A stretch of DNA of 21,161 bases from positions 1 through 21,161 of IMG/VR virus record IMGVR_UViG_3300020472_000201; one strand, written 5' to 3'. A program made the position numbers and the translations under genes. Origin of the DNA: a virus. The notes beneath the pieces were generated by a model, which made no database searches, was not told the DNA's origin, and saw only the letters and a program-made list of their open reading frames with translations. This document shows, piece after piece, positions 35 to 18,747 of the stretch (positions are counted from its first letter, which is position 1; every line of letters begins with the position of its first letter).

Positions 35-3000
35 GTGGGAGACGGTACCGTTACGGAGGAAGTGGTTGAGCCCATCAAGGCGGCAGACTTACTTAGTAGT
101 CACCTGTACGTCCGCAGGGCCTTCCTCGATAAGCAAAAGCGGTACAACGAAAAGAAGCTTAAGTCTGAGATGCAGGAAGCAATTCTCGGAGTTATGTGGA
201 AGCTCAGCGCAAGCCCGCGAGAACGAGAAATTATAACCGACCTTGTCGAGTCGATGGGGGATGGGACAACGCTAGAAGATCTAGGGACTACTCTTGTTTA
301 CAAGATTAGGAAGCACCTAGACAGAGCTCTTGTTTACGTTCCAGAAAACGTAACTGATCCGGGTGACCTAGAAAGATTAAAAAAGAGAATTGCAGCCGAG
401 GTCGACCCTAAAAAGAAAGCCAAGCTGAAGAAGAAGCGAAAGAAAGTAAAGAAGGCTCTTAAGCTTGAAGACGAGCTCAAGGAAGCAACGAAGCAGGTCC
501 GAGAGTTGTTGGGCGAAGACCCCTTCAACAAGATGGCTGGGATGACTTTAGGCCATGCCGTAAGGAGCGCTGGAGAAAAGGCTCAGGTCATTAGTTCCAT
601 TATGGAGCAGGTACTCGGAGTGGCTGACGAAAACGCTTACCGCGCCGCTAGGCGGTCACTCAAAGAACTCCAAGGCTTTATGACAGACGCCAATAAAAAG
701 GTCTCTGACGAAAAGTGGATGGAGTCAATCGACAAGCTTGACGCATTTGAAGCCAGAGAGGTGGCTGCTGCGGCTCGTAAGGACGCTTACAAAAGCGACC
801 CTAGGTATCAAAACCTTTCTGAAAACGGAAAGGTTGCAGTCGAAGGGGTAAGGAATTTCTTCAGCAACTTTAGGGACCTGTTGATTGCTGAAAATAAATT
901 GTCTCGGGCCAAGACCCTTGAGCAGTTTATGTTTGAAATGGACGTTGCTGGCTACATCCCTCATATGGTTAGAAACAGCACTAACGTTGCTAGGGTAAAG
1001 GCTCGAGTTGCCCGGAAGTACCACGTTTCTCTAGACCAGATTTCTGATGTCATTAACTCGGTTTCGGGTCGAACCATTACGGGGAGTGTAAAAAAGATTA
1101 ATCAAGAGAGACGTCGCGGCGTTGCCGAGATGATCTACAGAGAAACGGTCACGAAAGAAACCGGCAAGCCCCCAGCCAAAAGACTTTCTGACCAGGCTCT
1201 TGACGAAAAGGTTGCTGAGTACGGGCTAGGCGATCTTAAGTTTTTTGAAACCGATGCCTATAACGTAATGCAGGGGTACTCAAACAACGTCACTAAGGGG
1301 ATATCAAACAAGCGTTACTTAGAAAACATCCAGTCTATGTTTCCTCAGTCAGAGAAGTTCGCTGCTATGGCCGCTAGGAACCGACTGCAGGCAGACATGG
1401 AAGCTTCAGCCGAAGGTTTCCGTAGGGTGAACGGCGTTACGCATATTAGAGCTTTAATGGCTGACGAACCGTGGAAAGGCTTTCGCACTTACAGCGACGA
1501 GGTGAAGACCATCCTAATGCAAGAAGGTCTTAATCCCGTCACCAGAGCAAAAAAGCTTAACTCGTTTTTTAAAAAACAAGGAGTCGACCTTACTAACGCA
1601 GAGAACGCAAAGAAAGTAGAGGTCATGGCGAGTGACTTGTACTTGCCAAACTCTTTTGCCGACATGTTTGAGATGTCTGCTGAGAAGCCTGCTGAGTGGC
1701 TTCGTGCGGAGAAGGGTGTTGGTGGGTACGTTCTTGGGTCCTGGGACGCAGTAACAAACTACTTCAAGTCAATAACAACTGTCTTAGCCCCGGCATTCCA
1801 CGGGCGAAACTACCTGTCGAACGTGGTCACAAACTTAATGACCCACGGCACGGCTGCCGTTAGCCCCAAGAACCAAATTGACTCTATCTTTCTAATGAGG
1901 GCAGACCCGGACAAGGTCTACGTGCTCAGGGGGTCTAGTCCTGATGGCCAAGAGTTTTCTGTTAAGAAAACGGTTAGGGAGTGGCGCGATGAGATGCGAG
2001 AGAACGGCATCATTATTGATGACCTAGACCTCTCTGATGCCATGCAAACAGGCCGGACGCCCCGACATCTAAGGACAAGTTTTACCGACCCACTAACCGG
2101 GAAGTTCCGAGCCCCTGCTTACACAGCGATGGCGGGGTCAGCTTTGGGTGGCGCTTACGGCTACGCAACGGGCAATGAAGAAGACCGAGTGCGGCGCGCT
2201 ATGGCTGGCGTGATGTTCGGCGGGATTGCTGGGGTTAGCACTGGCGGGGCAATGGACTTGTTTTTGCGCGAGCCCGTTGGGGCCGCTCTTGAAGCGATTA
2301 AGAAGGGCGACCAGCCGTGGATCTGGAGTAGCCCAGATAGCTGGAAGAACGTAAAGCCAGCATTCTCTGCGGGCTTTGACGCTTGGATTGATCTAATTGG
2401 AGGCACCAATAAGCAAAGCTTTGCAAAGGCACTCTTCACCACAGAAACCGCAAAGGCTTCGCTCGGACTTGGAGCTGCTGGCTTTGCTGGTGGAGCTTAT
2501 ATTGGAGGCACCGACGAAGGCGGCAGGCTTGAAGCGGGAGTAAGGGCAGGGGTCCTTGCGGCCCTCTTTGGCGGGAGCAGTAAAGCGTTTCTAGATGGTG
2601 CCTTTATTTTATCCGGAGGGATTGGAAGGAAAATTGAAGAGCAGGCTAAGATCGTTAACTACCTAGCGGGTCGCCGCAAAGGTATGAGCGCCTCTGGCGC
2701 AGCAGACATTGTTCAAAAGACTTTGTTTGACTACGACGACCTTAGTACGTTTGAGCGGTACGTCTTGAGGAGGGTGTTTCCCTTCTATACCTGGAGCTCA
2801 AAGAACGCCACAGAGCTTCAGCCCTGGCTTCTCCAGAACAGACCCCTTGCTTACGCGGCTCTAACTAGGGTTGTTGATGCTCTTGATACTGGCTTTGAGC
2901 GTGACGAAGATAAGCGCCTTCTGGACGAACATCTTCGCTATCGGGTTATATTCTCTTCTGGTGCTGGCCGGGTCATTGCTGGTTTTGGGCTACCCCAAGA

Positions 3001-3679
3001 AGACCTGATGCAGATGTTTAAGGGCGCAAAGGGTGGCGTTTTGCCAACTGGCCTTGCGTCTTACTCGCATCCCGCTCTTCAATTAGTTTACAAATTCTTG
3101 TCTGGCAAAGACCCGTTCTACAACACGGACCTAAAGAGAATTACCTCTGCTCGAGATGTGCGCTACTTGCCGCAGTTCTTTAAGGATTACCTGGGCTATC
3201 ACGAGAAAACTATTTCTGTGAAGGTTCGCGGAGAGCTCAAGGAGTACACTAGTTACCAGGTTGGTCGTTACTACGACGAAGACACAGGCGAGCCAGTGCA
3301 GCTTGCTGAGGTGGCGGCTAAGAGGCTTGCTCTTTTAAAGTCTGTAGGAGCTGGTCGGCTTGTTGCTGAGTTAACGAAGATCCTCACTCCAACCTTTATG
3401 TCTGGAGTTCACGGCAGCGAAGAGGGCGCTGAGGCTACTGGCGCTGAAAGACTATTCGCGGTCTTGTCTGGTCTAAAACCTTACGGAACAGACATTAGGG
3501 AGGGCGGTCTTTCCGAGGAAAGAATGTACCGAGCTTTTGAAAAAGCGCTTGATGAAGCTATTGAGGCAAGAGGCGAGGGCGGTAAATTCCAGTTCATTCG
3601 GAAAAAACTGCCGCAAGACAAAGACTCTCTTGATTACCTTCAAGACCTAGGCCTTATCCAATACGATCCAGAGCAGTAA
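35..3679 (+). CDS. Very large phage virion-associated protein (possible internal/ejection protein)
   Basis: About 1214 aa. Residues 120-160 are a lysine-rich charged helix. A GYIPHMVRN motif lies at 306-314 and a FHGRNYLSNVVTN motif at 588-600. The segment at about 894-923 (LFDYDDLSTFERY, then RRVFPFYTW) resembles what I recall from huge phage 'large polyvalent' and internal virion proteins. Two glycine-rich hydrophobic stretches, at about 698-740 and 806-850, look alike and could be membrane-active hairpins. Catalytic motifs were not recognised. It is the first of a run of late virion genes, so a structural or DNA-ejection role is inferred. The start is uncertain: GTG at 35 sits on a GGGAGG sequence, but the frame is open to the left edge of the window, so the gene may begin outside it. 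A second GTG lies at 62. I am fairly sure it is a virion protein and unsure of its exact role. Confidence 0.75.
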   Translation: MGDGTVTEEVVEPIKAADLLSSHLYVRRAFLDKQKRYNEKKLKSEMQEAILGVMWKLSASPREREIITDLVESMGDGTTLEDLGTTLVYKIRKHLDRALVYVPENVTDPGDLERLKKRIAAEVDPKKKAKLKKKRKKVKKALKLEDELKEATKQVRELLGEDPFNKMAGMTLGHAVRSAGEKAQVISSIMEQVLGVADENAYRAARRSLKELQGFMTDANKKVSDEKWMESIDKLDAFEAREVAAAARKDAYKSDPRYQNLSENGKVAVEGVRNFFSNFRDLLIAENKLSRAKTLEQFMFEMDVAGYIPHMVRNSTNVARVKARVARKYHVSLDQISDVINSVSGRTITGSVKKINQERRRGVAEMIYRETVTKETGKPPAKRLSDQALDEKVAEYGLGDLKFFETDAYNVMQGYSNNVTKGISNKRYLENIQSMFPQSEKFAAMAARNRLQADMEASAEGFRRVNGVTHIRALMADEPWKGFRTYSDEVKTILMQEGLNPVTRAKKLNSFFKKQGVDLTNAENAKKVEVMASDLYLPNSFADMFEMSAEKPAEWLRAEKGVGGYVLGSWDAVTNYFKSITTVLAPAFHGRNYLSNVVTNLMTHGTAAVSPKNQIDSIFLMRADPDKVYVLRGSSPDGQEFSVKKTVREWRDEMRENGIIIDDLDLSDAMQTGRTPRHLRTSFTDPLTGKFRAPAYTAMAGSALGGAYGYATGNEEDRVRRAMAGVMFGGIAGVSTGGAMDLFLREPVGAALEAIKKGDQPWIWSSPDSWKNVKPAFSAGFDAWIDLIGGTNKQSFAKALFTTETAKASLGLGAAGFAGGAYIGGTDEGGRLEAGVRAGVLAALFGGSSKAFLDGAFILSGGIGRKIEEQAKIVNYLAGRRKGMSASGAADIVQKTLFDYDDLSTFERYVLRRVFPFYTWSSKNATELQPWLLQNRPLAYAALTRVVDALDTGFERDEDKRLLDEHLRYRVIFSSGAGRVIAGFGLPQEDLMQMFKGAKGGVLPTGLASYSHPALQLVYKFLSGKDPFYNTDLKRITSARDVRYLPQFFKDYLGYHEKTISVKVRGELKEYTSYQVGRYYDEDTGEPVQLAEVAAKRLALLKSVGAGRLVAELTKILTPTFMSGVHGSEEGAEATGAERLFAVLSGLKPYGTDIREGGLSEERMYRAFEKALDEAIEARGEGGKFQFIRKKLPQDKDSLDYLQDLGLIQYDPEQ

Positions 3680-4595: not shown

Positions 4596-5009
4596 ATGGC
4601 CATCACAATCCCCGCGTACCAGCCAACTACCGGCATTCTTGTAACCACTGCAAGCAGCGGCAACGAGACCGCCGCTGGTGTGCAGATGCAGCACACTTCG
4701 ACGGCAAACAACTTTATTAACGCCGGAGCTTTAGTCGGAGCCTCTCTCAAGCACACGACAAACGCAGGAGCAACCGAGAAGGTTATCGTCCGGTTTTACC
4801 GTGCCGCAGATAAGACAGACTTAATCGTTGAGACTGAGGTCTCTTTCAACGGGGCTAACGACCTAGCTTACATTCAGCCAGACCTGCCCATCCCATTTTT
4901 CTCAGGACTCTGGGCCACAACCTCGTCGGCTGCTGGCGATGGCGGCACTGGCGCAGTAGAGTCAGTTAACATTAAGCCTGATGTTATGGCGATTGCCGGC
5001 AATGGCTGA
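4596..5009 (+). CDS. Probable virion protein, beta-sandwich-like (137 aa)
   Basis: The ATG at 4596 is preceded by CAGGAG at about 4583-4588. The protein is acidic and neutral, rich in Ala, Thr, Asn and Gly, with predicted alternating strands (KVIVRFYRAADKTDLIVETEV). It has no Cys-pair motif, signal peptide or membrane segment. Its stop TGA shares a base with the ATG of the next gene (TGATG at 5007-5011), which indicates translational coupling to the paired tail-type genes downstream. A small decoration or tail-associated protein is the best guess from composition and position. The family was not recognised. Confidence 0.7.
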   Translation: MAITIPAYQPTTGILVTTASSGNETAAGVQMQHTSTANNFINAGALVGASLKHTTNAGATEKVIVRFYRAADKTDLIVETEVSFNGANDLAYIQPDLPIPFFSGLWATTSSAAGDGGTGAVESVNIKPDVMAIAGNG

Positions 5010-5893
5010 TGGGACTCACTACGGTAACAAGGACGTGGCCTCCCGCTAAGGGGGCGGGCGACTCGATAGACCCCGCCTGGCACGAAGAGTACTTCGTAGA
5101 CTTCACTACGCAGTCAAGTGCTGCTCTTTCGCACAACGACACGCCTGAGATTGGTGGCGTAAGCTGGCTTGTCGAAGAAGACGATAGCGGCGACACCGAA
5201 GGCGACATGGGGGCTATTGAGTGGGTTAGTGGTGAGGGATTAAAGATTACTCCCAAAGGCACAGGCGGCGAGGCAGACACAAACATACATAGCGCGATTA
5301 ACGCTCCATGCTTTTCGGTAGCGCTAGATGACTGCATCCCAAACCTGACAAACCATGACGTCCTTTGCATACAGGTTTTTACTGCTGAGCCTGTGACTCC
5401 TGCGGCCAACCACGACGGCTACGGGATAGTTGTTTACGACCCAGCGTCTGACTTAAGTTCAGTTCGGAAGTGGATTTGCTACCGCAATTTTATTACAGGC
5501 TCTAACAGGGTATGGCGGGTGTCTGGGCTAGACAATCGGGGCCGAGAGCAAAACGACTCTGGTGGGCTCGGCACCGTCCCTAGGTCGTTTGAGATTGTTT
5601 TGTACACGACTGGGAATGGTGCGGTGTGCGCTCACTCTACAAGCACCTCAGTTTCCGCTACTCCCCTGAGCACGATAGCCACGGACAGGGCCTACGTTAC
5701 AGGCGAGTTACCAAGTGGCTTTGGCAGCTTCGACGGCACCTTCTCGACCTCGTCCCCAACGTTTCATATCGACAAATCAGACATGCGCCTGGGCCTAACC
5801 TCGTACAAGGTTGGCAGCGGCACTTCGTTTTTTAACTACTTTCAGAAGGTTCGTATCCTTCGACTTGCTGGCCGAGCTGGAGGCGCAGATTGA
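5009..5893 (+). CDS. Tail-type protein, paralog A of a tandem pair (294 aa)
   Basis: It starts with ATG in a TGATG overlap with the preceding gene. The N-terminus MGLTTVTRTWPP is nearly identical to that of the next gene, and both proteins end in a similar 'F-x-K-V/L-R-I/V-L' strand. The two therefore look like tandem duplicates of about 293-294 aa. The body is rich in Ser, Thr, Gly and Asp with many short strands, and it resembles a lectin-like beta-sandwich carrying few Cys. This is typical of phage tail, fibre or receptor-binding proteins. No catalytic motif is visible. A surface-binding role is inferred from composition, pairing and the late-gene context, not from a recognised family. Confidence 0.72.
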   Translation: MGLTTVTRTWPPAKGAGDSIDPAWHEEYFVDFTTQSSAALSHNDTPEIGGVSWLVEEDDSGDTEGDMGAIEWVSGEGLKITPKGTGGEADTNIHSAINAPCFSVALDDCIPNLTNHDVLCIQVFTAEPVTPAANHDGYGIVVYDPASDLSSVRKWICYRNFITGSNRVWRVSGLDNRGREQNDSGGLGTVPRSFEIVLYTTGNGAVCAHSTSTSVSATPLSTIATDRAYVTGELPSGFGSFDGTFSTSSPTFHIDKSDMRLGLTSYKVGSGTSFFNYFQKVRILRLAGRAGGAD

Positions 5894-6774
5894 TGGGCGT
5901 AACAATTACCACTAGGACGTGGCCACCGGGACCAGTAGTAGCTGACACATCAACGTGGACTGTGGCTAAGGAGTGGGATTGGGCGGCAGAGAGTTCCCAC
6001 ACTTTTTCTGACAACACTGCTCAAAGCTTTCAGAGCGTTGCGTTTACACCAAGGAACGTAGGGGACTCAAGCTCATTTGCCGTTGACGACAGCGGGCTAA
6101 AGATTGCTGCCACCGGAAGCCAAGCGGGGGGACAGTGGTACAGCACGATTCAAACGGGGCCAGCCTTGATGGCTCCAATCTCATCCATCGTTGATAGCTT
6201 CAGCCTGAAGGACACAATCTGCGTTCAAGCCTTAGTAGATACTACGGTCGTAAGCACTGGAGGCACGCTTTCTCAGCAGTACCCTGACGTTGCCCTCTTG
6301 CTTGGAGACGGTGGCTACGGCGCGTCTGGCGGGGGAAACTGGGTCAAGATTTCAGCTTATCGGCAGCTAAGCACATCAGACCACATCGTTTACGCTCGGT
6401 ACGGAGGCGGGGCTGCTACTGGAGCCGGGAACAACACAGCATCTTTTACGATTGCCGGGGGTTTCCCTACGTTCCTAGAGCTTGTCTTTTACCCTGGAAC
6501 AGGCTGGTCTAGCGCGGCGTCTAGGGACAGCGACTTCCAAGACCCATTGTCCGTTACTTCCGGCAGGTATTACAGCAACATGCAGACAACGCTCCCCAAA
6601 GACATTGGCGCTGGCAGCGTGAATACTGCCCCTGGTGCCAGTCCTAACTTCACCCTAAGGCCAGCCAACCTAAATCTAGGTCTCTCCTTTACGCTTACTC
6701 AAACTGGAAGTGACGCTAGCTCTAACGCGAATGCAGTTTTTAAGAAGCTGCGAGTCCTGAAGAGGAACTACTAA
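5893..6774 (+). CDS. Tail-type protein, paralog B of a tandem pair (293 aa)
   Basis: The frame is open from a TTG at 5890, but the ATG at 5893 lies in a TGATG overlap exactly like that of paralog A and gives the matching N-terminus MGVTITTRTWPP, so it is preferred. The internal layout mirrors paralog A: an early aromatic 'W-x-x-E' region, a 'DSGLKI' strand matching 'GEGLKI' in A, a central glycine-rich 'GDGGYGASGGGNWVKIS' strand, and a C-terminal 'FKKLRVL' strand. The middle regions have diverged strongly while the ends are conserved, as expected for surface proteins under changing selection. Probable tail or fibre component; receptor specificity is unknown. Confidence 0.72.
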   Translation: MGVTITTRTWPPGPVVADTSTWTVAKEWDWAAESSHTFSDNTAQSFQSVAFTPRNVGDSSSFAVDDSGLKIAATGSQAGGQWYSTIQTGPALMAPISSIVDSFSLKDTICVQALVDTTVVSTGGTLSQQYPDVALLLGDGGYGASGGGNWVKISAYRQLSTSDHIVYARYGGGAATGAGNNTASFTIAGGFPTFLELVFYPGTGWSSAASRDSDFQDPLSVTSGRYYSNMQTTLPKDIGAGSVNTAPGASPNFTLRPANLNLGLSFTLTQTGSDASSNANAVFKKLRVLKRNY

Positions 6775-9748: not shown

Positions 9749-9981
9749 GGCTTTAAAGCCCTCCGCTCATTGATTGCTTTGTCGATGTGCTTAAAGCAAC
9801 CCATGCAGCACACTTGATATCGTATCTCAAGAGTGGGTAGTTTCCCGTCCATTCTCGGTATGAGTTGAGCTGGGGCGCAGTACTTGTCGCCTATTGGAGC
9901 GCCGCACAATTCGCAATCTCCCTGAGACAACTTGGTGATTACTTTCGCCGCTGAGCGAATGTGGTGAACTCCTTTAATCAT
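9745..9981 (-). CDS. Small zinc-ribbon-like protein (78 aa)
   Basis: Two Cys pairs, C23-x-x-C26 and C59-x-x-C62, form a zinc-ribbon-like layout (CELCG, then CCMGC). C35 and C58 are extra Cys. The N-terminus is basic (HHIRSAAKVITKL). Overlaps of 4 nt with both neighbours (ATGA) indicate a coupled operon. Zinc ribbons of this size often bind DNA or RNA or mediate protein contacts in phage takeover. The partner is unknown. Confidence 0.6.
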   Translation of the reverse strand: MIKGVHHIRSAAKVITKLSQGDCELCGAPIGDKYCAPAQLIPRMDGKLPTLEIRYQVCCMGCFKHIDKAINERRALKP

Positions 9982-10166
9982 CCTTCGTACTCCCCTCGAG
10001 TAGCCTTTGGCAGGTGAAGGTAGTGGAAATACTGCGGGTCTACTTTAGCCTTAGACAGGTCTGCGATAGCCGCCTCAATTCGTTTGAACTGCTCAGGTGT
10101 TGTCCTTTGAGATCGGACAAGCTTTAAAAGCTTAAGAGCTGAGTCGATGGATATGTGTGTAGTCAT
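9978..10166 (-). CDS. Small helical hypothetical protein (62 aa)
   Basis: The ATG at 10166 follows GGAAGGAAG about 7 nt upstream and is preferred to an in-frame GTG at 10196, which has no ribosome site. The predicted fold is two or three helices (LLKLVRSQRTTPEQFKRIE). Residues 40-62 are less ordered. The gene overlaps the zinc-ribbon gene by 4 nt. It begins about 97 nt after the dpdA stop, and that gap holds only the RuvC-like remnant. No function was recognised. Confidence 0.55.
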   Translation of the reverse strand: MTTHISIDSALKLLKLVRSQRTTPEQFKRIEAAIADLSKAKVDPQYFHYLHLPKATRGEYEG

Positions 10167-10195
10167 TGCTTCCTTCCTAGTATTCGGAGCTCGCA

Positions 10196-10262
10196 CTATG
10201 CGAGTAATCCAGTGTCTTTAGCGTTGTTGTCTAGCTTTGTTTTTAGCCTGAGGTTGGCTCCT
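10196..10262 (-). pseudogene. Remnant of a RuvC-like resolvase C-terminal end
   Basis: Directly after the dpdA stop, in a different frame, the bases encode LKTKLDNNAKDTGLLA followed by TAG. The RuvC-like gene at 11838 ends with RKTKPDDNIADAGLLA at its metal-binding C-terminal motif, and 10 of these 16 positions match. The two DNA copies differ mostly at synonymous third positions, so this is not a recent duplication. There is no usable start codon after the AGGAG at 10258-10262. It is best read as the end of a decayed, related resolvase gene. Chance similarity is less likely but not excluded. Confidence 0.4.
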
Positions 10263-10895
10263 TCAGCCCGCCCCCATGCCTGGGAAAAGATGTCCCTGTC
10301 TCCTCTCGTTGTCGAGCCTTGGAAGATTGCAGGAAAACCGGGTAACGCTTGTCCCGTCGAAGGAGTGTGCCCCGGCGTCCTGGCAAAGGCGTATTCTTTT
10401 TGCCGTGTTGACTCTGGCCACATGGAAGTGGGCCTTTTTTTTCCGAGCTAACTCTCCCCACTCTCGCATGGTCTCGAGCTTCCATTCTGTCGAGCCCCCT
10501 AAAAAAATGCCGACTCTGTCGTTTAGTAGATCGCTAACGTCCGCTGTCTCCATGCCGTCTTGCACTGCAATCAGCGCTGCGCCAAAGGAGAGCACGCGCG
10601 ACAGCCAGGTAAGGCTAAATAGAAGGCTGTCCAGCCCACCCTGAACGATGTCAGGGACTACAATCCAGTCGGCATCGTCGCCAAGCCATCCGAGCATTTT
10701 CAAAAAAGACTCAGAGTCGAAATCTACGCCCTTTTGAAAGCACCCCCACGCTCCGTTATCAAGAGCATAAGCAAGGGGCGGGCGCTGCCCCCCGTATCTA
10801 CTTAACTGGGAGGGCTCGCAAAGCATCCTCCAGCCAGCTCGCCGCATGGCTTCAATGTTTCGCTTGGTTCCGGTCCTGCTTGCGTAAGGCATCAT
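10263..10895 (-). CDS. dpdA: DpdA-like DNA 7-deazaguanine transglycosylase (210 aa)
   Basis: DpdA enzymes are relatives of tRNA-guanine transglycosylase that swap guanine in DNA for a 7-deazaguanine base such as preQ0. Visible motifs match this family: PYASRTGTKRN at the N-terminus, YALDNGAW (Asp46), VVPDIVQGG (Asp82), LIAVQDGM, FLGGSTEWK at 131-139, HVARVNT, and FDGTS (Asp180). The GGS loop and aspartates are the expected base-binding and catalytic elements. The start at 10895 was chosen for its ATGA overlap with the cupin gene; an upstream in-frame ATG would extend into that gene. It sits in one operon with queC, which makes the precursor. Its length suits the short phage DpdA proteins I recall. 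The exact modified base cannot be read from the sequence. Confidence 0.8.
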   Translation of the reverse strand: MMPYASRTGTKRNIEAMRRAGWRMLCEPSQLSRYGGQRPPLAYALDNGAWGCFQKGVDFDSESFLKMLGWLGDDADWIVVPDIVQGGLDSLLFSLTWLSRVLSFGAALIAVQDGMETADVSDLLNDRVGIFLGGSTEWKLETMREWGELARKKKAHFHVARVNTAKRIRLCQDAGAHSFDGTSVTRFSCNLPRLDNERRQGHLFPGMGAG

Positions 10896-11242
10896 GGCAA
10901 CCGCCGGTAAGACCAGCGTTGCCGGTGAGGCCCGCGTAGGCAAAGGGTTAGAGCGCCTTCTTTAAACGTGCGGATTTTGTGAACGCTGTTGAATCGACGG
11001 AACGACACGTCCCCCTTACGCCTAGGCCGCTCGCTCCCCTGGCACTGGCTCTCAGAGTACCCACCACTTAAGACGACTGTTAAAAAACTCCAGGGATGAT
11101 CATGAGCAGCGATGATCATGCGAAACGGAGAGGCGGGGAATCGGTGTACGTAAAGGCCAAACATTCTATTTTCCAAAAGAACTAGGCGCTCCATCGTCGG
11201 AGATTCTGAGGTTTCTTTGGGAAAGATTGGCTTCCAGTTCAC
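10892..11242 (-). CDS. Cupin-like protein between queC and dpdA (116 aa)
   Basis: A GTG start at 11242 overlaps the queC stop (GTGA), and its own stop overlaps the dpdA start, so the gene is translationally coupled on both sides. It contains a small beta-barrel pattern typical of cupins: HDHPWSF at about 47-53, VVLSGGY, a GDVSFRRF strand, a further His (SVHKI), and LCLRGPHRQRW. His47 and His49 with a later His are candidate metal ligands. Small cupins of this pattern are common in phages, usually unannotated. Its fixed place in a base-modification cassette suggests a role in precursor or base processing, but that is inference. Confidence 0.65.
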   Translation of the reverse strand: MNWKPIFPKETSESPTMERLVLLENRMFGLYVHRFPASPFRMIIAAHDHPWSFLTVVLSGGYSESQCQGSERPRRKGDVSFRRFNSVHKIRTFKEGALTLCLRGPHRQRWSYRRLP

Positions 11243-11841
11243 GGCTTTAGCCCCCGCTCCCTAGCTAGGCAGGCTCCGCATTTCTTGCAGGGTTGGTCTC
11301 CTCCTAAATAGCAACTCCATGACATGACCATCAAATTGGTTGCCCCAAGGCTGTGGCCCAGTGCCACAACCTCAGCCTTGGTCTTGTCAATCAGTGGAGT
11401 AAGAATCTTGATCCCAAGTTTTTCCTCGGCCTGCTTAAAAAACTCAGGGCGACAGTCCTCAAAGTCATCCTGGTCGTCTTTGCACGACCCAATGACAAGC
11501 GCATCAGGAAAGGGGTGCATCAAAGCAGCGCCTTCAAGAAACCTCAGGTTGCGGTTGGGGACGACTACGTCTGGCCCGCTCAACTCCCCATCGCCGCCAG
11601 TCAATGACGACTGCCCCATACCGTCAAGGATTGGCATGACCCGGTACCGAACGCCGCAGGACGCGGCAATCCGTCGAGCCGCCTCAAGTTCTTTGACGTG
11701 CCGTTGTCCATAGTGGAATCCCACAGCGTCCACGTAGTCAAAATCTGAGTCGTAAGTAATCCCAATAGGTAGCCTCTGCCTCTTCGCCCACGCCAAGCAA
11801 ACAGCGGAGTCCAACCCACCACTAAGTAAGACCCGTATCAT
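11239..11841 (-). CDS. queC: QueC, 7-cyano-7-deazaguanine (preQ0) synthase (200 aa)
   Basis: QueC converts 7-carboxy-7-deazaguanine to preQ0 with ATP and ammonia. The PP-loop SGGLDS is at residues 7-12. HYGQRH at 43-48, VPNRNL, CRPEF and the C-terminal zinc site SWSCYLGG...PCKKCGAC (Cys177, 185, 188, 191) are all present. The ATG at 11841 was chosen because its ATGA overlap with the RuvC-like gene is exact and the PP-loop then follows at once; the longer frame reads through that gene. Two oddities: an extra acidic segment at about 24-38 (YDSDFDYVD) and His43 where most QueC have Asp (DYGQ). No QueD, QueE or FolE gene lies in the window, so those steps are encoded elsewhere or supplied by the host. 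Confidence 0.88.
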   Translation of the reverse strand: MIRVLLSGGLDSAVCLAWAKRQRLPIGITYDSDFDYVDAVGFHYGQRHVKELEAARRIAASCGVRYRVMPILDGMGQSSLTGGDGELSGPDVVVPNRNLRFLEGAALMHPFPDALVIGSCKDDQDDFEDCRPEFFKQAEEKLGIKILTPLIDKTKAEVVALGHSLGATNLMVMSWSCYLGGDQPCKKCGACLARERGLKP

Positions 11842-12353
11842 CTCTTCTCCCCCAGTACCCGGCGTGCGTACTCTGCGAGCAGCCCGGCGTCTGCAATGTT
11901 GTCGTCTGGTTTTGTTTTTCTGCCTGGAGTCAGGTCGAGGGTTGGTAGCAGCCTTCGGCAGGCAGCAATGCTTCTTGGCTTTGGTTCTCCTCCACCCGGA
12001 CACACCTCAGCCTGCCACCTCTTCGGCTGGATGACGTCGTAACGACACCCAAGCCCCGTCAAGAAGCCGTCTATGCGCCCCCAGTTCTTGCCCATAGTGA
12101 TCGCTGAGCCTGCACCCATCTTTGGAGACGGGCGGGCACCCAGAGCCTCCACAGCAGCGCAGAGGCTGTCTACGGTGCAGCCTTCGTCGTAACAAACACC
12201 CTCTAGCCAAGCGCAGAGAGCAGTCAGGTCGATGTCTTTACCCATGTGCGGGAGCTTGGTGACCCCGGCAAGGGTGCCGTCCCCCCGAAGGAGGACAGCA
12301 GCGCCTTGCTTTCCAGGGTCAATCCCTAGGTAGAGTTTAGAAGGGGATGTCAT
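11838..12353 (-). CDS. RuvC-like Holliday junction resolvase (171 aa)
   Basis: An RNase H-fold resolvase that would cut branched DNA during recombination or packaging. The first strand carries LGIDPGKQGAA with Asp12. Glu69 (AAVEALGA) and the C-terminal KPDDNIADAGLLAEYARR with Asp151 and Asp155 complete a typical acidic metal site. The ATG at 12353 overlaps the end of the SSB-like gene and gives the family-like start MTSPSKLYLGIDPG; a longer frame from 12404 would overlap further. The gene is coupled to queC by ATGA. A related C-terminal fragment lies after dpdA. Confidence 0.78.
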   Translation of the reverse strand: MTSPSKLYLGIDPGKQGAAVLLRGDGTLAGVTKLPHMGKDIDLTALCAWLEGVCYDEGCTVDSLCAAVEALGARPSPKMGAGSAITMGKNWGRIDGFLTGLGCRYDVIQPKRWQAEVCPGGGEPKPRSIAACRRLLPTLDLTPGRKTKPDDNIADAGLLAEYARRVLGEKR

Positions 12354-12840
12354 CGAGGTCTTCCGACTTCGCTGGAGCAGCGGGGGGTGCGGCGGCAAAC
12401 TCATTATCTACAACTTCATTGAAGTAGAAGTTCGGGTAACCCGAAGCGCTTGTCCGCTGACGCATCTTCAAGACCTTGCCGGCTAGCGACGAGACAACCA
12501 CGCCGGCCTTGTTTGCCGCCCTGTTGTAGACATCTTCACCAGCAGGCATGGCCCCCAGCAGCAGCATCAAGTCGTCGGCCAGAATCTGCAGGCCAATCTG
12601 GCTTGCTCGCTGGTACTTCTCGACGTACTTGCCTTTGCAGAGACCGTCGACCACCTCAAGGCCCCACTTGTACCGCTCAGGGTTTGGCTTACCGTCGTCA
12701 TGAGACCAGTAGTCGAACGAGGTGACAGCCACGGTGTACTCACCGTCCTGCAGTTCGTCTCGCTCTCTTCGCCCGTTGCTTGTGTTACTAGCGCCTCGCG
12801 CCTTTGGGGTAATCGTGTTCCACACATCGTTAATACTCAT
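12337..12840 (-). CDS. Single-strand DNA-binding-like protein (167 aa)
   Basis: The protein has a beta-rich core (GEYTVAVTSFDYW ... YKWGLEVVDGLCKGKYVEKY) and a flexible Ala/Pro stretch ending in SEDLDDIPF. That acidic-aromatic tip is the hallmark of SSB-type proteins, used to contact partner enzymes. Its place between a Sak4-like ATPase and a RuvC-like resolvase supports a ssDNA-binding role in recombination and replication. The start at 12840 overlaps the Sak4-like stop (TGATG). The core fold was not matched to a named family with certainty. Confidence 0.72.
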   Translation of the reverse strand: MSINDVWNTITPKARGASNTSNGRRERDELQDGEYTVAVTSFDYWSHDDGKPNPERYKWGLEVVDGLCKGKYVEKYQRASQIGLQILADDLMLLLGAMPAGEDVYNRAANKAGVVVSSLAGKVLKMRQRTSASGYPNFYFNEVVDNEFAAAPPAAPAKSEDLDDIPF

Positions 12841-13580
12841 CAGTCAGTTTCCTCAGCAGTTGCCTCAAAGGAGGCGGTGAAAGCCTTTCGCAAAGTGTCG
12901 AAAGACAGGTCCATAGTTTCTGGCATTGGTTTTCCGAGCTCGCCACGAGAGCCGCATTCAATCTGAAAGTTCCCGTCCTTGTACGGGGCAGTCCTAAGGA
13001 GCCTGTTGCCCTTGTCGTCCATCTCAACTCGGAAGATAAAGTCGACAGCTCCGTGGACAACCTTGCGAGCGCTTCCTGGGAGCGCCGAGGTAAGCAAGAT
13101 CTCTCCGCTCCTCTTTCCTTGGTCGTCAACCTCAACCTCGCGTCTCTCGTGGGACACGAAGATCACGGCCATGCCCAAGGTACGCACGGTAGTAATTGCG
13201 TTAGTCAGCTTTCGTCGGGCTAGCTTGTAGCCTTTGCCGAAGCCGCCGTCTCCGAGGTCCTGCCACCCGTTCTCGGTGCAGACATCGTCAATGAGGAACT
13301 CGTACAAGTTGTCGATGGTGTCGATCACCAGCGTCTTCCACCGATGCTGCCCCTTCTTCTTCTTAAGCTCACCAACAACGTTGCGGAAGTCCGTCCAGTT
13401 GCTGACCTGAATATCTGCCGCCTCCATTGCCGCAGTCCCTGGCTCCGTGGCGAGGAAAAGGGCCTCAGGCCACTGGTTGCAGAAGGTCGTCTTTCCTATC
13501 TTTGGTGGTCCGTAGACCATCCAGAGGTACGACGAGAGCGTCCTTCGTGGCTCGTGTCTATCTGTGGGGATAAGGCTCAT
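12840..13580 (-). CDS. Sak4-like RecA-fold ATPase, single-strand annealing recombinase (246 aa)
   Basis: Walker A GPPKIGKT is at 24-31 and Walker B TLVIDT at 83-88. An 'F-V-S-H-E-R-R-E' strand and a C-terminal EMDDKGNR region follow the AAA_24/Sak4 layout. Such phage proteins act as RecA-like or Rad51-like core-domain recombinases together with an SSB. The start at 13580 overlaps the nuclease stop (ATGA). A neighbouring SSB-like gene and a Cas4-like nuclease support the assignment. Strand-exchange activity itself cannot be read from the sequence. Confidence 0.78.
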   Translation of the reverse strand: MSLIPTDRHEPRRTLSSYLWMVYGPPKIGKTTFCNQWPEALFLATEPGTAAMEAADIQVSNWTDFRNVVGELKKKKGQHRWKTLVIDTIDNLYEFLIDDVCTENGWQDLGDGGFGKGYKLARRKLTNAITTVRTLGMAVIFVSHERREVEVDDQGKRSGEILLTSALPGSARKVVHGAVDFIFRVEMDDKGNRLLRTAPYKDGNFQIECGSRGELGKPMPETMDLSFDTLRKAFTASFEATAEETD

Positions 13581-14464
13581 ACTATTGCTCCTTCACTCAA
13601 CTCTTGATGTGGCCTATCGACCACGTTGTATGCGTCACGGGTAACTGCCCCGCAACACAGGTCCAGAAACTTGCAGCGACCGTAACGGCCAACGCAACTC
13701 TCTGTGTTTCTGATGGCAAAGCCACCGTTCTCTGTCTCAAGGATTCGCCTGTGAAGCTCCCAAGCCTCTTCGCGCCACAACTGCATCTGCTCCTCTGAGC
13801 GAGTCAGCTTTTCGTGGTGGAAGTAGAAGTCAGGGCGGTCTAGGTAGTCTTGCTTGATGCGCTCAATGTACTCATCGGGCGTCTCTTTTTTGCGCTGCTT
13901 ACTGCTAGGCCAACGAGCAATGGCGTAAAACATCTCTCGTATCGGACGACCAGCCATCCTCGATGCCGCCTCGAGGTAGGTAGAAACCTGGAAATCAATG
14001 TCTAGGCGGTCTATGTAGGCAGCGTCAAGGCGAGAAGTAGTCTTGAACTCGTACACGGCGTTGTCGTCTAGCCCGTCAAGCACGCCCGCCAGCCGGTGGC
14101 GACGGGACGGTCGACCTGTCTTTGGGTTAACGAGGGGCAAGTTAAACTCAACCTCGCGGCGAGTCGGCCAGTAACTCCAGCGGGCCAAAGCGCCCTCAAC
14201 GATGGCGTAGGCAACCCCTGCCATCATTCTTAGGTCGTCTACGGCCTGCTGGCCGAAGACCTTGTTTGCCGAAGCCATGATGTACTCGCTCGCAGCCGCA
14301 GGGTCTTGCTTCTCTATGCCGTAATGAACAGCAGAGCCACGGCTCATTGCATTAGTTTTTGGTGCTCTCAGAAGTTCGATGTACTTGTATTTGTGCAGGC
14401 GTGGACATCGTCCAAACGTGACGAGTTCCGATTGGGATAGTCGTCGGGATAGTTTCGGGGTCAT
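13577..14464 (-). CDS. PD-(D/E)XK nuclease, Cas4/RecB-like with Fe-S cysteines (295 aa)
   Basis: The N-terminus reads LSQSELVTFGRCPRLHKY, the usual opening of RecB-like nucleases, with Cys20. SRGSAVHYGIE carries His47. GVLDG (Asp130) and YEFKTTSR (Glu139, Lys141) form the PD-(D/E)XK core, and FQVSTYLEAA is motif QxxxY. Cys257, Cys264 and Cys270, with Cys20, match the four-cysteine iron-sulfur cluster of Cas4-type nucleases. It would resect DNA ends for the adjacent Sak4-like protein. The ATG at 14464 gives the natural N-terminus. The start lies inside the upstream small zinc-ribbon frame. Confidence 0.85.
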   Translation of the reverse strand: MTPKLSRRLSQSELVTFGRCPRLHKYKYIELLRAPKTNAMSRGSAVHYGIEKQDPAAASEYIMASANKVFGQQAVDDLRMMAGVAYAIVEGALARWSYWPTRREVEFNLPLVNPKTGRPSRRHRLAGVLDGLDDNAVYEFKTTSRLDAAYIDRLDIDFQVSTYLEAASRMAGRPIREMFYAIARWPSSKQRKKETPDEYIERIKQDYLDRPDFYFHHEKLTRSEEQMQLWREEAWELHRRILETENGGFAIRNTESCVGRYGRCKFLDLCCGAVTRDAYNVVDRPHQELSEGAIV

Positions 14465-17222: not shown

Positions 17223-17543
17223 CTACCCTTCTTTCTCTGCTGGGACAACCCACAACTGGACAGGGGGAATGCCACGGCATGTCCTCGCCCTAGCTACGGC
17301 TTGGTGACTGATGCCCATCTCTTTTGCGATCTTCCGGTCTGACCAAACTCCAAGTTTTGGGTGGTACTCTTCTTTCTTCCTACGCCCTCGCTTTCTCTTG
17401 ACTTGAAATCGGTCAAGCGCCTTTGCTGCGGTACGAGTGGCGATGTTCCACTTAGCGGAGACCGCCTCGATTGAGCCGAGTTCTCGGTAGTCCTTGATAA
17501 ACTCTTCCTTCTCTTCGTCTGAAACAGCCAATGGTCTAGGCAT
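17223..17543 (-). CDS. Phage HTH protein with two helix-turn-helix units (106 aa)
   Basis: A first HTH-like segment lies at about 20-45 (LGSIEAVSAKWNIATRTAAKAL) and a second at about 68-90 (SDRKIAKEMGISHQAVARAR). Between them is a basic linker (KRKRGRRKK). Two HTH units with a basic bridge suggest a small DNA-binding regulator. It overlaps the methyltransferase end by 8 nt and follows a GGAGAAAGC ribosome site. Possibly it controls the methyltransferase operon or late transcription; the target is unknown. Confidence 0.65.
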   Translation of the reverse strand: MPRPLAVSDEEKEEFIKDYRELGSIEAVSAKWNIATRTAAKALDRFQVKRKRGRRKKEEYHPKLGVWSDRKIAKEMGISHQAVARARTCRGIPPVQLWVVPAEKEG

Positions 17544-18747
17544 TGCTTTCTCCTTTGCTCTTCATAATTTGCTCAGCAATACGCTGGGCAACGATTGGTG
17601 TTACTGCGTTACCCACTTGCCGATACCGGCTAGTTTTTGTGCCCACAAATGGGTAGTCGTCTGGGAAATCCATTAACTTCGCGCACTCCTCTACGGTTAG
17701 TCTTCTTCTTCCGGTGGCCAGCCATAGGACGTCAGACGCCCGGTCAATGCCACCCCGCTGTCTTCCTGACTTGGTCTTGCCTGACATGCTCTTACCCCTA
17801 GTCCCCTTAACTTCGGTCGTTGTGACGGTCGGGGCTGGTTGCTTGAGCAACTCTGGGCGAGAGCCCGCAACGACCCAAGGGCCCGCGTTTCCAATGCGGA
17901 CAGCCGGGATAGTGGTGCAGGGCTCGTCGGTTAAGTCTCTGTAGTTTCTCTTTGAGGCGAGCTCAGCCGACTGGGGGTTCCGGCCACCGCCAATGACGCG
18001 GAGCATCTGGTTCCCCTTGCCTCCGATTGTTGGCGCTGGCTCATCAGTTGTCGCTGGGCGCTCCTGGTTGGGGTGGTTGGCAGAGTTCCTGCTCCCGCTC
18101 AACTCGCCCACTAGGTTAAGTGCTTGTCCCACTGTCGCCCACGGCATGACATCTGACGCAAACATGTCGGATGTCTTGCTCGGGTCCCCGTGAGTCGGCT
18201 CGGGCCAGTCGATTGGATGGGGGCCTGCAACGATGAAGACCCTGCGCCTGCGCTGGGGGACACCGAAGTCGGCACTGTCCAGTATCCGCCAGCCTACCCA
18301 GTTAAAGCGTCTCCCTAGATCTCTAAGAATTACTTCATTGAAGTAGGCGTTGGGGCACGAGGGTGAGCCGATGCAGTTCTTCCCTCGCTTACACGCGCCC
18401 TTGTGATTGGTTAAACCAACGACGTTCTCACCAACAAACCAAGTGGGGTTTGTTACTGACACCGCGTTGATTGTGGCGGGCCACATGTTGCGCTCGTCCT
18501 CAGCCCCCTTCCTCTTGCCAGCCGTAGACCACGCCTGACAGGGGAAGGAGGACCACAGGACGTCCGGAGACATGCCGAGGTATAGAGAGATGTCTCTGAC
18601 GTCCCCCTGGAGCGCAGGGAGCCCCGCAGCACGCATCGTAGAGCAGGCATCCTCATCCCACTCCACACAGGCAAGGTGCTCGCACCCCGCAGCCTCGAGT
18701 CCGAGGGCAGCGCCCCCAGCTCCGGCAAATAACTCAAGTACTTTCAT
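17536..18747 (-). CDS. DNA cytosine-5 methyltransferase (403 aa)
   Basis: It transfers methyl from S-adenosylmethionine to C5 of cytosine. Motif I ELFAGAGG is at 5-12, motif IV SSFPCQ with catalytic Cys70, motif VI ENV at 107-109, motif VIII QRRRRVF at 165-171, and the closing QVGNAV at 377-382. The region about 230-345 is the target-recognition part. It carries three similar 'EP-A/C-P/T-T-I/V' blocks, suggesting short repeats. A Cys-rich insertion after motif VI (Cys119, Cys125, Cys131) is unusual. A good GGAAGGAGAGGGAG site precedes the ATG. The recognition sequence cannot be told. No cognate restriction enzyme gene is visible, so it looks like a protective orphan enzyme. Confidence 0.88.
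   Translation of the reverse strand: MKVLELFAGAGGAALGLEAAGCEHLACVEWDEDACSTMRAAGLPALQGDVRDISLYLGMSPDVLWSSFPCQAWSTAGKRKGAEDERNMWPATINAVSVTNPTWFVGENVVGLTNHKGACKRGKNCIGSPSCPNAYFNEVILRDLGRRFNWVGWRILDSADFGVPQRRRRVFIVAGPHPIDWPEPTHGDPSKTSDMFASDVMPWATVGQALNLVGELSGSRNSANHPNQERPATTDEPAPTIGGKGNQMLRVIGGGRNPQSAELASKRNYRDLTDEPCTTIPAVRIGNAGPWVVAGSRPELLKQPAPTVTTTEVKGTRGKSMSGKTKSGRQRGGIDRASDVLWLATGRRRLTVEECAKLMDFPDDYPFVGTKTSRYRQVGNAVTPIVAQRIAEQIMKSKGESNA

Follow-up and report, generated by a model that had tools for sequence, protein, structure and literature searches.

Insertion of 7-deazaguanines into phage DNA by DpdA, in phages that carry preQ0 genes, is already known (PMC6884629, PMC8306585). Which substrate serves phages whose only such gene is DpdA was a question that Hutinet et al. 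did not settle, and they observed no correlation for the transporter YhhQ (PMC6884629). The locus described here places QueC, the preQ0 synthase, beside a small DpdA-like gene, and an earlier note on this DNA predicted from the pair that the phage carries a 7-deazaguanine in its genome. Does it, and what enzyme and whose precursor would it use? We propose that the gene set very probably swaps guanine in a nucleic acid for an altered guanine derived from an early, host-made precursor, and that the nucleic acid is most likely the phage's own DNA.

The locus and its surroundings

The window is the entire IMG/VR record IMGVR_UViG_3300020472_000201; because the record is linear and 21,161 bp long, we treat it as a fragment of a virus genome. 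The four genes named in the earlier note were all matched by profiles or fold on the minus strand, where it had placed them, and three recombination/replication genes lie upstream in the same co-directional run (Table 1). Read off the sequence, the junctions are ATGA between RuvC-like and QueC (ATG 11841, TGA 11840-11838), GTGA between QueC and cupin (GTG 11242), and ATGA between cupin and DpdA (ATG 10895). The statement that such overlaps separate every gene therefore holds within the four-gene block but not upstream, where the exonuclease and Sak4-like genes meet at ATGA, Sak4-like and SSB-like overlap by 1 nt, and SSB-like and RuvC-like overlap by 17 nt. The longest open reading frame for the DpdA-like protein begins at TTG 10943 and is too long; we place the start at ATG 10895 because both the gene overlap and the relatives fit it.

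Table 1. Genes of the co-directional run in the window, with the basis of each assignment.
Feature	Coordinates	Strand	Basis or remark
Compact TGT/DpdA-like base-exchange enzyme, 210 aa	10263..10895	-	start ATG 10895; phrog_15826, AF2, Foldseek, hhalign
Small cupin, 116 aa, GTG start	10892..11242	-	phrog_4786, AF2, Foldseek
QueC, 7-cyano-7-deazaguanine (preQ0) synthase, 200 aa	11239..11841	-	start ATG 11841; PF06508
RuvC-like Holliday junction resolvase	11838..12353	-	phrog_1770 E 5.8e-22
SSB-like/DUF669	12337-12840	-	same co-directional run, upstream of RuvC-like
Sak4-like annealing ATPase	12840-13580	-	same co-directional run
PD-(D/E)XK exonuclease	13577-14464	-	same co-directional run

Comparison with the related loci L002 and L003 gave pN 0.13-0.16 and pS ~0.74 for the DpdA-like gene, pN 0.12-0.19 and pS 0.74-0.78 for QueC, and pN 0.26-0.38 and pS 0.71-0.76 for the cupin. 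All three are thus under purifying selection, strong for DpdA and QueC and weaker for the cupin, and are not chance reading frames. The reported absence of QueD, QueE, and FolE from the 21,161-bp window was confirmed and extends to YhhQ; relative to the full preQ0 phage pathway (folE, queD, queE, queC, dpdA), this 21 kb fragment of a virus genome has no folE, queD, or queE. The window likewise contains no tRNA genes.

The RuvC-like gene does not belong to the cassette in which the earlier note had included it. Such a gene occurs in the loci of only 14 relatives, mostly not beside DpdA, and this inconsistent linkage rules it out as a member; it is a gene of the recombination block, probably reflects ordinary recombination/replication context, and is unlikely to take part in the modification chemistry. 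No near relatives of the window's replication half were found among the phage records. The window also encodes a cytosine-5 DNA methyltransferase (17536-18747, minus strand; TIGR00675 1.3e-47), so a second DNA modification in this phage is possible. On the plus strand, a 1,214-aa protein (35-3679) and two tandem, paralogue-like 294-aa proteins (5009-6774) have no PHROG match, and the structural half of the window phage appears to be poorly represented in libraries.

A compact family related to TGT and phage DpdA

Arthrobacter phage Sonali encodes a compact homologue (gp81) as well as a full-size protein (gp87; phrog_887/7068) near queC, queD, queE, and folE. Since one phage has both, the compact and full-size proteins form separate families, and whether the compact one merits the name DpdA had to be checked. 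Positions 9962-13839 of the Sonali locus (L009) hold the two TGT/DpdA-like proteins together with the full preQ0 pathway.

By sequence, the window protein falls outside the described DpdA and DpdA2 families. Its sole PHROG match is phrog_15826 ("unknown function," E 5e-46), and searches of Pfam, NCBIfam, PADLOC, and PDB sequences returned no useful match for the compact enzyme. An iterated CAjan DpdA profile run over the loci recovers only Sonali gp87 and misses the compact family. Isolates with a compact member include Mycobacterium phage StevieRay, Arthrobacter phage Aoka, ReqiPine5, and Erythrobacter phage R6L, and the homologues in isolated phages are labeled either "DpdA-like tRNA-guanine transglycosylase" or hypothetical. 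The BFVD entry A0A0F7L9Z1 from an uncultured marine virus is 499 aa long, with ~207 residues 54% identical to the compact enzyme; because the compact-like region lies within a longer protein, the enzyme may here be naturally fused to a further domain.

The TGT fold, whose absence from a structure prediction the earlier note had named as a refutation, is present in the model. AlphaFold2 returned a confident structure (pLDDT 94.8, pTM 0.91; 93 sequences), and TGT accounts for every one of the 50 best PDB structures matched by Foldseek (E 8e-6 to 5e-5, query TM 0.58-0.65). Matches among viral models include queuine tRNA-ribosyltransferases of Mufasa8 and Sonali and, as a distant fold match, DpdA2 of Vibrio phage nt-1 (R9TGF0, E 2.3e-3). 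A second comparison, with VIA, tied TGT (Z 15.2) with pyruvate kinase (Z 15.3). Because of this tie the fold alone is not decisive, and we therefore relied on Foldseek together with the motifs.

Six motifs are invariant in the compact family: DNGAW (46-50), PD (81-82), VQDG (111-114), FLGGSTEWK (131-139), HVARVN (158-163), and SFDGTS (178-183). In hhalign, all six are collinear with those of 12 phage DpdAs (P 7e-5), and the match to bacterial TGTs (P 0.0035) sets VQDG on VQGG and FLGG on AIGG. In the profile alignment, SFDGTSVTRF of the compact enzyme falls on MFDCVMPTRNAR of bacterial TGT, which places D180 at the position of the TGT catalytic aspartate. The roles ascribed to this and the other residues are those established for TGT or given in PMC6884629. 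D180, H158, D46, D82, Q112, and GG133-134 are invariant or nearly so across the 93 sequences, which share no conserved set of zinc cysteines. H158 is present in 93 of 93 and aligns with His196 of 9g DpdA, a residue typical of DpdA, whereas DpdA2 lacks it (PMC6884629).

Overall, the compact family shares with phage DpdA (9g, CAjan, and Rosebush; preQ0 DNA deoxyribosyltransferase) a TGT-type barrel, the six motifs in the same order, the aligned histidine, an aspartate (D180) that falls on the DSS aspartate, and linkage to preQ0 genes or YhhQ. It differs in size (about 205-216 aa versus about 277-367 aa in most phage DpdAs compared, phi3ST:2 having 240 aa), in PHROG (15826 versus 887/7068), in carrying VQDG rather than HxGE, and in usually having one precursor gene rather than the full set; Sonali carries both kinds. 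Bacterial TGTs provide the best solved-structure matches, and their catalytic aspartate and VQGG/GG pocket motifs align with the compact enzyme, but identity is about 12-17%, and the compact enzyme has neither the zinc cysteines nor the C-terminal region. We conclude that these are predicted TGT-barrel enzymes; the DpdA identity given earlier stands for the fold and catalytic residues but not for family, as the protein belongs to a separate, compact group outside the DpdA and DpdA2 profiles.

QueC retains its catalytic motifs

The window QueC matches PF06508 with E 2.5e-38 and 132 bits (cut-off 22), and its sequence contains the catalytic motifs SGGLDS, YGQRHVKE, VPNRN, FEDC, SCY, and C-x7-C-x2-C-x2-C. 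It passes the motif test for the canonical cluster (SGGxDS, YxQxHxxE, VPxRN, [YF]xDC, zinc cysteines, and the adjacent Tyr), and the residue groups kept are those shown or proposed to matter in Escherichia coli QueC (PMC13329287). Across 42 QueCs (41 from related loci plus that of the window), the P-loop, E51, R97-N98, D129-C130, C177-Y178, C185, C188, and C191 are invariant. All catalytic motifs and the four cysteines are common to canonical Bacillus subtilis QueC (3bl5), with the differences that YPDC and C-x8-C there correspond to FEDC and C-x7-C here; the Y131F substitution in E. coli QueC keeps partial activity (PMC13329287). The best NCBIfam model is TIGR00364 at 127.4 bits, below the equivalog cut-off of 150.3. 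The protein is 200 aa long and has no glutaminase domain, which rules out a Gat-QueC. Judged from its sequence, the window QueC is intact, with every catalytic motif retained.

One precursor gene beside the enzyme

Relatives were drawn from 2.9 million viral contigs; dereplication at 90% identity left 98 viral loci, from phage isolates as well as IMG/VR contigs, and a preQ0-pathway or precursor-transporter gene was counted as linked if it lay <=700 nt from the compact enzyme on the same strand. Such a gene adjoins the enzyme in 45 of the 98 loci, with QueC as partner in 31, QueD in 7, YhhQ in 6, QueE in 4, and FolE in 1; the other 53 have no adjoining precursor gene. Because 42 of the 45 linked loci have exactly one precursor or transporter gene, the pattern suggests that these phages patch the host pathway at one point.

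The linkage recurs well beyond what position would give. Precursor genes are adjacent in 49 of 57 cases versus 27% expected by position (P ~4e-20, to be read as a guide since the loci are related), and for the QueCs found in the loci the figure is 31 of 33 versus the same 27% (P ~1e-15, the loci again being related). QueC is carried by about 330 of 50,697 phage records (~0.65%). When neighbors were clustered without supervision, the leading real same-strand family was QueC, and QueD, QueE, and a transporter of the YhhQ type also recurred; two clusters larger than QueC consisted of antisense reading frames overlapping DpdA and were set aside. On the DpdA tree, adjacency to QueC requires at least 12 gains or losses, and both gene orders occur.

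Host supply of the precursor, raised as a possibility in the earlier note, fits these data. Of 50 longer related records, 13 contain QueC above the cut-off and only 2 of those 13 also contain QueD, and among bacterial genomes with a copy of the compact enzyme, 14 of 14 encode TGT and 13 of 14 a full-length QueC. None of the bacterial-genome copies of the compact enzyme has an adjacent QueC. Pfam bore out the YhhQ assignment in four records, and three of these are phages that infect actinobacteria (Mycobacterium, Rhodococcus, and Arthrobacter), the genera to which the YhhQ-linked copies of known host belong; mycobacteria are without a preQ0 pathway, and Rhodococcus erythropolis has only TGT (Hutinet et al., PMC6884629).

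Some copies of the compact enzyme are followed, 9-253 nt downstream and in place of QueC, by a gene for a PAPS-reductase-like PP-loop ATPase. These include four sphingomonad loci (L153, L154, L156, and L157), phage ReqiPine5 (L012), and Paraburkholderia/Caballeronia loci (L137, L142-L145, L147, and L150). The gene has weak matches to BrxP/DndC models, and its product may either stand in for QueC or have an unrelated function. The Sphingobium genome behind L154 contains a second, sub-threshold TGT match away from the compact enzyme (G051:C37:4279-4875, E 2.9e-5). A separate neighborhood was seen for full-size DpdA, which adjoins a ParB-like nuclease/partition gene in L127, L129, L131, L132, and L134.

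An optional cupin

The cupin matches phrog_4786 (E 2.6e-19), and its model has a cupin fold (AF2 pLDDT 90.5; Foldseek cupins E 8e-8). An HxH...E...H metal-site pattern (H47, H49, E64, and H88) is invariant in nine cupin sequences, and close relatives (>=50% identity) occur only in the order QueC-cupin-DpdA, in five of five loci (the window, L003, L004, L022, and L172). The pair QueC-DpdA is found alone in L002, the nearest relative of the window with 81% DpdA identity, and in L016 and L021; because these near relatives lack it, the cupin is an optional addition, perhaps acting on the base either ahead of its insertion or afterward. It could go further and turn inserted preQ0 or ADG into an undescribed 7-deazaguanine, as an addition to the mechanism proposed below. 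The exclusive position of close cupins and their invariant metal site speak for such a hypermodified base, but the optional nature of the cupin and the occurrence of distant phrog_4786 cupins in phages with no QueC-DpdA cassette make it a doubtful, if conceivable, extension.

Proposed mechanism and alternatives

We propose that the host queuosine pathway (FolE, QueD, and QueE) would supply 7-carboxy-7-deazaguanine (CDG), which the phage QueC would convert via the amide ADG to preQ0, raising or channeling the supply. The compact DpdA would replace guanine in DNA by preQ0, using Asp180 as the covalent nucleophile in the way that TGT acts on tRNA, and the cupin may alter the base or one of its precursors. 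The reactions of QueC and TGT themselves are established. A likely benefit would be protection from host restriction; the DNA modification of phage CAjan reportedly has this effect.

We consider it probable that the cassette places a 7-deazaguanine in phage DNA through this combination of host pathway, phage QueC step, and compact DpdA. A single phage-supplied step joined to the host pathway is most likely, because linked loci mostly have exactly one precursor gene. DNA is the presumed target because of the kinship with DpdA, the recombination/replication context, and the absence of the C-terminal parts of TGT. The predicted 7-deazaguanine is well supported as a reading of the base, through the intact QueC, the TGT fold and residues, and the linkage, while DNA as its location and preQ0 as the specific base we infer. 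Several observations count against this explanation: there is no sequence match to a characterized DpdA or DpdA2, 53 of 98 loci have no precursor neighbor, VIA ties TGT with pyruvate kinase, QueC scores under the NCBIfam equivalog cut-off, and phage Orion, with a lone DpdA of a different subfamily, yielded no modified base (PMC6884629). No published measurement on any member of the compact family was found in the open-access literature.

Alternatively, the compact enzyme may act on RNA, inserting preQ0 fed by QueC into host or phage tRNA, or other RNA, and so tuning translation. TGTs originated as enzymes of tRNA, Foldseek ranks bacterial TGT as the closest fold among PDB structures, and Hutinet et al. 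proposed a boost to tRNA modification for phages that have preQ0 genes but no DpdA (PMC6884629). We regard this as unlikely, since the compact enzyme has neither the C-terminal region nor the zinc site of TGT and retains a histidine at the position of DpdA H196, the cassette sits among DNA recombination genes in a window free of tRNA genes, and a normal TGT is already present in every one of the 14 bacterial genomes in which the compact enzyme occurs.

The gene pair could also be a phage counterpart of Cap9 and Cap10 from type IV CBASS, in which QueC would attach a 7-deazaguanine to protein and the TGT-like partner would bind or remove it, perhaps countering host defense. Cap9 is QueC-like, Cap10 is of the TGT family, and both act on protein (PMC11996544); a QueC plus a TGT-like protein, with no QueD or QueE, is the same pair, and the window QueC weakly matches both Cap9 (9nto) and the PADLOC QueC model (3.2e-13). 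However, it is much nearer to canonical B. subtilis QueC (1e-21) than to Cap9 (0.0018) and has the canonical Cys-Tyr pair where Cap9 has Cys-Glu, and PADLOC scans found no CD-NTase or Qat gene among the flanking genes. Moreover, relatives often pair with QueD, QueE, FolE, or YhhQ instead of QueC, which fits the supply of a free base, and we consider a protein-directed pair quite improbable. Least probable, and only barely credible, is a TIM-barrel enzyme of other function in an incidental preQ0-gene neighborhood: barrels are common, identity to TGT is very low, VIA scores pyruvate kinase as highly, and over half of the loci have no adjoining preQ0 gene, but the six motifs follow the order seen in phage DpdA, the catalytic aspartate of TGT aligns with D180, TGT fills all of the best 50 Foldseek PDB places, and five different genes of one pathway are linked at the positional P given above for related loci.

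Implications

In the open-access literature, we found no description of the compact family as a class, of its one-gene partnership with five precursor genes, or of the cupin variant. It is tempting, although we would give it small odds, to view the compact family as a third class of enzymes that exchange bases in DNA, a minimal module with one host-complementing gene (FolE, QueD, QueE, QueC, or a transporter), in which the cupin of the window clade leads to an undescribed 7-deazaguanine. If these phages do patch the host pathway at one point, the partner gene should foretell whether the precursor is made by the host. A base-exchange enzyme of ~205 aa with no zinc domain would also offer a compact means of introducing 7-deazaguanines into DNA.
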